This document shows, piece by piece, positions 50,837 through 51,316 of a DNA stretch of 64,000 nucleotides. Location: assembly GCF_015832195.1 (NCBI RefSeq), contig NC_052018.1, positions 38,011,052-38,075,051 of the forward strand, read 5' to 3'. Numbering within the stretch: position 1 is the stretch's first letter; each line of letters opens with the position of its first letter. The notes under the pieces are model-generated. The model was not told the DNA's origin, did no database searches, and was given only the letters and a program-made list of their open reading frames with translations. A program made the translations under genes and the position numbers. The stretch is from Motacilla alba alba. Its lineage: Eukaryota; Chordata; Aves; Passeriformes; Motacillidae.

Positions 50837-51316
50837 CTACAGGAATTGGAGAAGGGTATTAGAAGAAGTGGGACTTATCGGAATGGAAGGTTCTTTCCTT
50901 ATCAACATGGGCTTTTGAATGCAGGACAGCTCATTGGTGTTCTGTGATCTTCTTGCTTTTAGGCTGTTGCTGGGGCTTGATGGTTGTTGGTTTTGGGTTC
51001 TATTTCCTTGGTAGGTACTTGGAGGACTTCTGTGATGTGGGTAATATTTCACAGGTTTGCAGTTTGGTGCATATTTACTACCTTGCACTGGAACTCCACC
51101 AGGTCCTGTCACATCAGCTGCTTGGGGGCCTTTTCTTCCTTGTATTGTATTAAATTCCACAATTTCTCCATCTCCTAGACTATGAAGGTATTTCCTGGGG
51201 TTATTCTTTTTTATAGTAGTCTGATGAACAAACACATCTTCTTTGTTATCATTCCTGATTATGAAGCCATATCTGTTTTTTACATTTAACCATTTCACTG
51301 TCCCCAAAATGTTCAT
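50837..51316 (-). CDS. Y-box (YBX1-type) cold-shock-domain protein captured in an LTR element
   Basis: An uninterrupted 159-codon frame. Residues 4-83 form a Y-box cold-shock domain (LGTVKW start, VQGSKYA end), a five-stranded barrel that binds single-stranded nucleic acid. From memory, about four fifths of these 80 positions match vertebrate YBX1. The four aromatic/histidine contacts are kept: W9, F18, F29, H31, in VKW, YGFI and DVFVH. Two family-typical residues differ: the F after VKW is L10, and the G before YGFI is R15. Residues 84-115 still resemble the start of the basic/aromatic C-terminal region; the rest is S/P/Q/N-rich, and the long basic-acidic repeats of YBX1 are absent. No introns are present, so it came through RNA. 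Homology begins four codons before this ATG (KKVLA), so the true start may lie further upstream. Expression is unknown. Confidence 0.82.
   Translation of the reverse strand: MNILGTVKWLNVKNRYGFIIRNDNKEDVFVHQTTIKKNNPRKYLHSLGDGEIVEFNTIQGRKGPQAADVTGPGGVPVQGSKYAPNCKPVKYYPHHRSPPSTYQGNRTQNQQPSSPSNSLKARRSQNTNELSCIQKPMLIRKEPSIPISPTSSNTLLQFL

Follow-up and report, generated by a model that had tools for sequence, protein, structure and literature searches.

How did a Y-box cold-shock domain (CSD) come to lie inside a small retroelement, and was it of use to that element? The question is raised by a 159-codon open frame at 50837..51316, on the minus strand of a 64,000-nucleotide stretch of the Motacilla alba alba genome (NC_052018.1, positions 38,011,052 to 38,075,051 of the forward strand; hereafter the window). 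The frame belongs to an element with long terminal repeats (LTRs), a primer-binding site, and a polypurine tract, and it holds an intron-less piece of the host gene YBX1 that stands at a constant position in the several copies of its family; a protein of the same derived type occurs in six passerine families, with the RNA-contact residues retained in most members. We consider it fairly probable that this is a non-autonomous, probably class-II-like LTR family in which one YBX1 capture was kept as the element's own RNA-binding protein.

The preliminary description of the locus had reported a frame running from ATG to stop with a complete Y-box CSD that keeps W9, F18, F29, and H31, and translation, Pfam, and PDB comparison all bear this out. 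The Pfam CSD (PF00313) covers residues 5-71 (51104..51304; E = 1.9e-22), the best PDB chains are the CSDs of YB-1/YB-2 (6lms, 5yts, and others; E down to 3.2e-40), and the CSD identity of the frame is beyond chance. The four residues correspond to W65, F74, F85, and H87 in YB-1 numbering, which is used below, and 63 of 82 residues are identical to host YBX1. Eight Y-box residues are named in a passage of PMC9928419 as key to RNA binding (K64, W65, Y72, F74, F85, H87, K118, and E121); the window copy keeps the first seven and has Q in place of E121. The long C-terminal domain of YBX1, with its alternating basic and acidic clusters, has no match in the element past exon 5, and the composition of the tail there is different.

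All features of the element are on the minus strand, so that in transcription order we find an R-U5 remnant of the 5′ LTR (52577..52680), a leader with a decayed primer-binding site at its start (52300..52576), a GC-rich upstream internal region (51335..52299), six codons just 5′ of the ATG, about five of them resembling the end of YBX1 exon 1 (51317..51334), the CSD frame, a 3′ internal region (50293..50836), a polypurine tract (50278..50292, read from the sequence and bounded by comparison of copies), and a complete 3′ LTR of the form TGTTG...CAACA (49972..50277, with TG at 50276 and AATAAA at LTR position 224). The earlier placement of the frame, in the same orientation between an R-U5 piece and a polypurine tract plus complete LTR, is thus upheld by the repeat pair and by the comparison of copies. 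The pair forms the direct repeat 49971-50074/52576-52679 (93% identity over 104 nt), and the four other direct-repeat families of the window are only 19-22 nt long. Two LTRs surround the internal region in the window, where the 3′ LTR is complete and the 5′ LTR is truncated at LTR position 204, just before the AATAAA signal, and in three further copies (L009, L010, and L011), each of which has both. In L010 the 3′ part of the GC-rich region is in frame with the CSD; in L010 and in two relatives' proteins (P0002 and P0126) the CSD frame continues into the 3′ internal region as a Pro/Phe/Ser-rich tail.

A search of the 1.07-Gb genome with the frame gave 14 matches. Two are exons of a single host gene and the rest are element loci, 11 in addition to the window, so that 12 loci carry all or part of the frame. 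At all six loci that extend to both sides (the window and L009-L013) the CSD has identical neighbours. The partial loci hold the upstream part and the first 300 nt (L015), the later part of the CSD onward (L014 and L016), or the frame end onward (L017-L019). Because L009, L010, and L011 share flanking DNA and represent one integration, the six both-sided loci amount to four integrations and the twelve loci to at most ten, flank sharing having been checked for these three. Searching with the upstream region returned eight loci, seven with the CSD and an eighth (L047, on C4) cut before it; searching with the 3′ internal region returned 18 places, of which 11 are CSD loci and five of the other seven, examined as loci (the second C22 place and C3:96784519 were left out), are all cut within the 3′ region. 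Each of the internal pieces without a CSD (L047-L052) is cut before the CSD boundary on its side, and among the loci examined we found no junction joining the two flanks without a CSD. The same neighbours around the CSD, which the preliminary description had proposed to look for among copies, are therefore present in this genome at every both-sided locus.

Relatives were sought in protein lists comprising the 120 best of 224 and of 6210 matches, with 14 sequences read and the others judged by name and score. Family members occur in Mimus melanotis (P0001), Camarhynchus (Geospiza) parvulus (P0003), Lamprotornis superbus (P0011 and P0123), canary (P0023), zebra finch (P0113 and P0121), white-throated sparrow (P0122), and junco (P0127), together with two contig proteins (P0002 and P0126); the families represented are Mimidae, Thraupidae, Sturnidae, Fringillidae, Estrildidae, and Passerellidae, and no non-passerine member was evident among the 120 best matches of either list. 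In a residue alignment of 11 sequences (the window, L010, and nine others, leaving out P0002 and P0113), Q115, P120, and a change at E117 are present in all 11, Q or R121 in all 10 with a residue at that site, and T76 and K/R71 in 10 of 11 each. Most members also have a tail unlike YBX1 after the CSD, and YBX1-like residues persist at sites 80, 108, and 112 in P0126 and in the Lamprotornis and Mimus members. Since the derived residues and the tail are shared while some members are still YBX1-like, the alignment suggests one capture followed by step-wise change, pointing to a single origin of the family across the six passerine families. A protein search with the P0126 tail alone matched only P0126 itself, and an AlphaFold prediction for P0126 (14 sequences) was discarded at a mean pLDDT of 49. 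Two database entries deserve separate mention: the Junco hyemalis prediction P0127 joins the element CSD to an FCP1_C segment, either as a gene-model artefact or as an exonised element, and P0065, on a 307-base contig labelled Pantoea vagans, has a Y-box-like CSD (75% identical over 52% of the query) that is probably vertebrate contamination.

The window frame had been called intact, which is true of the CSD, not of the original protein, because an in-frame stop lies just upstream of the frame, before the six codons that precede the ATG, where L010 and several relatives' proteins read through, and because the frame terminates 47 codons earlier than that of L010. P0126 is an open protein of 344 codons with an N-terminal part, the CSD, and a long tail. 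Five of the seven copies that span the CSD are disrupted: L009 and L011 have a common 5-nt deletion in the CSD, L012 and L013 have frame-shifting length changes there, and stops are present in L013 and L015. The open frame had also been held to be a notable sign. At about 8.7 private changes, however, only 0.24 stops are expected per copy, so that it is no surprise for a domain of 80 codons to have stayed open in an old copy; the openness of the window frame is about what neutral decay allows and is by itself no evidence of function. The window frame is probably not a working gene, and the copy is probably a decayed, inert remnant.

The CSD was compared with host YBX1, as had been proposed for this frame, by the method of Nei and Gojobori (NG86). 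The ratio of replacement to silent rates (dN/dS) is 0.14-0.23 in the seven spanning copies and reaches 0.31 and 0.45 in the partial copies L014 and L016. In a count over six copies (L009, L011, and L016 not used), the changes found in every copy, or in every copy except one, were 23.8 silent and 17.2 replacement, and private changes were 12 silent and 34 replacement plus two stops (Fisher exact test: P = 0.002); the count excludes seven sites where the one exceptional copy agrees with the host. Tighter counting rules, applied to three sets of copies, give P = 0.003, 0.013, and 0.006. An excess of G-to-A changes on the stem (26 vs. 10) is not significant against the base content of the host (P = 0.17).

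Where the captured piece came from is answered by its structure. Host YBX1 is located on G000:C21 at about 7.957 Mb. Its exons 2-5 each have a counterpart in the element, where no intron separates them, and the remainder of the 27.5 kb around the gene gives no match. The piece is about 100 codons long and comprises the CSD and a short stretch beyond it. Because exons 2-5 are present without introns, untranslated region (UTR), or C-terminal domain, we read it as a partial capture of spliced mRNA, and the sequence comparison supports YBX1 as the donor. The earlier proposal that a host YBX cDNA had been captured by a non-autonomous LTR element is thereby supported and narrowed to part of the YBX1 mRNA, with any functional role inferred. 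A lone YBX1 processed pseudogene that landed in an older LTR element, the case named in the preliminary description as fatal to the capture claim, would also be intron-less, yet it is excluded: the neighbours are the same on both sides at six of six loci, the comparison with the 27.5-kb host region gives no match to the UTR or the C-terminal domain, no A-run exceeds 6 nt from the frame start to the LTR in the window (or 7 nt in L010), and other passerines share both CSD and tail. It is improbable, though less remote, that the donor was another Y-box gene or the YBX1 of another species, captured recently. The silent distance between host and element CSDs (dS 0.66-1.09 in the seven spanning copies) would then measure donor distance instead of time in the element. 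Against this, a protein search of the genome, with all 35 candidates scored, gave no other Y-box sources than YBX1 on C21 and a single weak place on C16; the VQGSKY that follows the CSD, and KKVIATKVLG in the Mimus member, are YBX1-type residues; and the derived residues were apparently gained step by step among the members.

The more serious rival, which we regard as doubtful but well within reach, is that the YBX1 piece was an accidental passenger, never used, whose copies were made in trans by other endogenous retroviruses (ERVs) while the frame decayed. The private changes counted above look neutral, as this account would have it. It is harder to reconcile with the behaviour of the protein: percent identity is higher in the CSD than in the tail for all 15 pairings of six proteins (76% vs. 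33% between the window and P0126; 65-83% vs. 26-42% in the 11 distant pairs), the pairs being non-independent and some tail ends uncertain. Furthermore, the net charge of the CSD is +3 to +8 in all 12 scored family members (P0002 was not scorable) and +1 in all four host-type Y-box CSDs, two of them YBX1, the family having fewer acidic residues than host YBX1. The RNA contacts are mostly retained (Y72 in 11 of 11 members; K64, W65, F74, F85, and H87 in 10 of 11 each; K118 in nine of 11), and the family is present in six passerine families. Several observations weigh on the side of the passenger and against a retained, used protein. W65 is lost in L010, and of the 10 members that have a residue at position 121 none keeps E; the C-terminal domain of YBX1 is absent; and only the window and L010, two of the seven spanning copies, are free of stops and shifts. 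The silent excess belongs partly to the host branch, and a neutral element gives P = 0.012 if that branch is half as long as the element's, 0.056 if equal, and 0.25 if double, so that neutrality is not rejected once the host branch is at least as long. Internal informative CSD sites are only four silent to four replacement; dN/dS between copies ranges from 0.25 to 0.92, with values over 1 for five pairs that include the short copy L014; and the contrast between stem and private changes is not significant past the CSD (P = 0.085). At the DNA level the CSD, mostly about 86% identical to the window, is no better kept than the leader or the 3′ region and only slightly better than the LTR; it is better kept than the upstream region. 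No autonomous partner was identified either, three related LTR loci (L044-L046) being lone LTRs. Taken together, the comparisons are suggestive, not proof, and tip the balance towards selection on the CSD while the family moved.

On the reading that we favour, in which the captured domain was retained as the element's own protein, a single capture in the ancestor of the family would have brought in exons 2-5 of a spliced YBX1 mRNA, and the CSD would have been kept as the sole recognisable protein domain of the element. The CSD protein would have been made and been useful during the spread of the family, most likely by coating or chaperoning the element RNA and so aiding its packaging into the particles of other ERVs, or by controlling translation. 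The absence of pol and env noted earlier holds in Pfam searches: across 12 stretches of the window element (two frames and 10 more, on both strands) no gag, pol, or env domain was found and the CSD is the sole match above cut-off, as it is in the L010 frame and the proteins of seven relatives except for the FCP1_C fused in the Junco prediction. Because the element has priming and integration signals and no recognised viral protein, Gag and Pol were presumably supplied in trans by other ERVs. Passages in the literature connect YB-1 with retroviruses in ways that agree with such a role: YB-1 co-localises with the Gag and RNA of mouse mammary tumour virus, and its knock-down lowers particle output (PMC4486188, citing Bann 2014); it also supports the replication of human immunodeficiency virus (PMC6040738). 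A bolder version, which we put forward only tentatively as a possibility, is that a lineage without a recognisable viral gene lived on this one captured RNA-binding domain across at least six passerine families, that the domain evolved to be more basic and nucleocapsid-like, packaging or protecting the element's own RNA, and that structural and enzymatic proteins were borrowed from other ERVs. A captured RNA-packaging domain as sole coding content would show that a parasite can take over the mRNA-coating system of its host for its own RNA, and the family is a natural experiment on the role of YB-1 for retroviruses, in which the contacts were mostly kept, acidic residues lost, and the rest of YBX1 dropped. 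A family spread over several species also makes the question of selection directly testable.

The type and age of the element can be estimated from its ends. The primer-binding site, decayed in the window, is clear right after the LTR in L010 and L015, where we take it to be tRNA-Lys-like. The integration shared by L009, L010, and L011 on C3 is bordered by a 6-bp ccctgt-like repeat, a candidate target-site duplication: the sequence to the left of L010 matches that to the right of L009 exactly, and the two sides of L010 itself differ at one position. A Lys-type primer site and a 6-bp duplication are presumably marks of class II (ERVK), and for this element, which has no pol, they suggest a class-II-like, betaretrovirus-like origin. 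Kimura two-parameter distances between paired LTRs are 0.087 in L010, 0.147 in L009, 0.139 in L011, and 0.071 over 104 nt in the window. Passerine substitution rates are 2-3.3e-9 per site per year, and insertion ages reckoned from these distances at such rates are of the order of 10-35 million years.

Within the LTR, ATTGG motifs (Y-box/CCAAT) stand at LTR positions 40 and 106 (window 50234-50238 and 50168-50172). Of the aligned LTR matches, 14 of 18 preserve the 6-mer at the first site and 13 of 22 at the second, and in a ranking of LTR 6-mers by conservation one ATTGG site falls in the top tenth and the other is ordinary. Autoregulation through these motifs, in an element that encodes a Y-box domain, is possible, and the motifs offer a weakly supported lead to it. 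A gag identity for the upstream frames at 51335..52299 was considered and dropped, there being no Pfam match; because two long overlapping frames fit GC-rich sequence, we call this part a leader or N-terminal region only. Likewise, 10 frames of L047-L052 gave no retroviral domain in Pfam, the only match above cut-off being a TFIIB-type zinc domain in L052 and the rest weak and below it. Related LTRs are common in the genome; among the 40 places scored of 153 candidates, a spacing of about 2.6 kb separates three pairs, all of them CSD elements, and no pair is spaced by 5-10 kb. A search for Gag_p24, with 150 of 368 candidates scored, gave many open frames. Gag_p24 frames are numerous, and often open, on C212, C243, and C274, as an ERV-rich W-like chromosome would show, and no CSD place is found there. 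The block of C3 at about 0.87-1.12 Mb is segmentally duplicated and carries the three copies of the one CSD-element integration; one pair of Gag_p24 places and one of LTR places in it are each exactly 92,035 bp apart.

Capture of a spliced host mRNA by a retroelement has a familiar model in the acutely transforming avian retroviruses, exogenous viruses that capture growth-control genes. Like them, the CSD family carries a piece of spliced host mRNA in a defective, helper-dependent element; unlike them, it is endogenous and old, and what it captured is an RNA-packaging domain. With host YBX1 and other Y-box proteins it shares the CSD and most of the RNA contacts, whereas the element protein lacks the C-terminal domain, has fewer acidic residues, and bears a novel tail. 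Closer in kind are crocodilian ERVs that captured KIT-ligand and nectin3 mRNAs, for which purifying selection is reported in the passages of PMC4299795 that describe them: there too, host mRNA entered an endogenous lineage and is present in several copies with open frames. In those ERVs, according to the same passages, either KIT ligand was an addition that cost the ERV no domain or nectin3 took the place of env, and viral genes are present, whereas the CSD family consists of short elements that carry an RNA-binding domain and no recognised viral gene. Passerine ERVK solo-LTR families (portions of PMC11009239 and PMC6523648) resemble the CSD family in surviving largely as lone LTRs, and term searches of those portions returned no Y-box, captured gene, or "cold shock domain". 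Nor was an LTR element with a Y-box or cold-shock domain suggested by the titles and opening lines of abstracts searched, which largely leave subscription journals and preprints uncovered. Host mRNA capture by ERVs is thus already known, and the endogenous cases that we met concern a ligand and a surface protein; the CSD family would add an LTR element in which all that can be recognised as coding is an RNA-packaging domain taken from the host.
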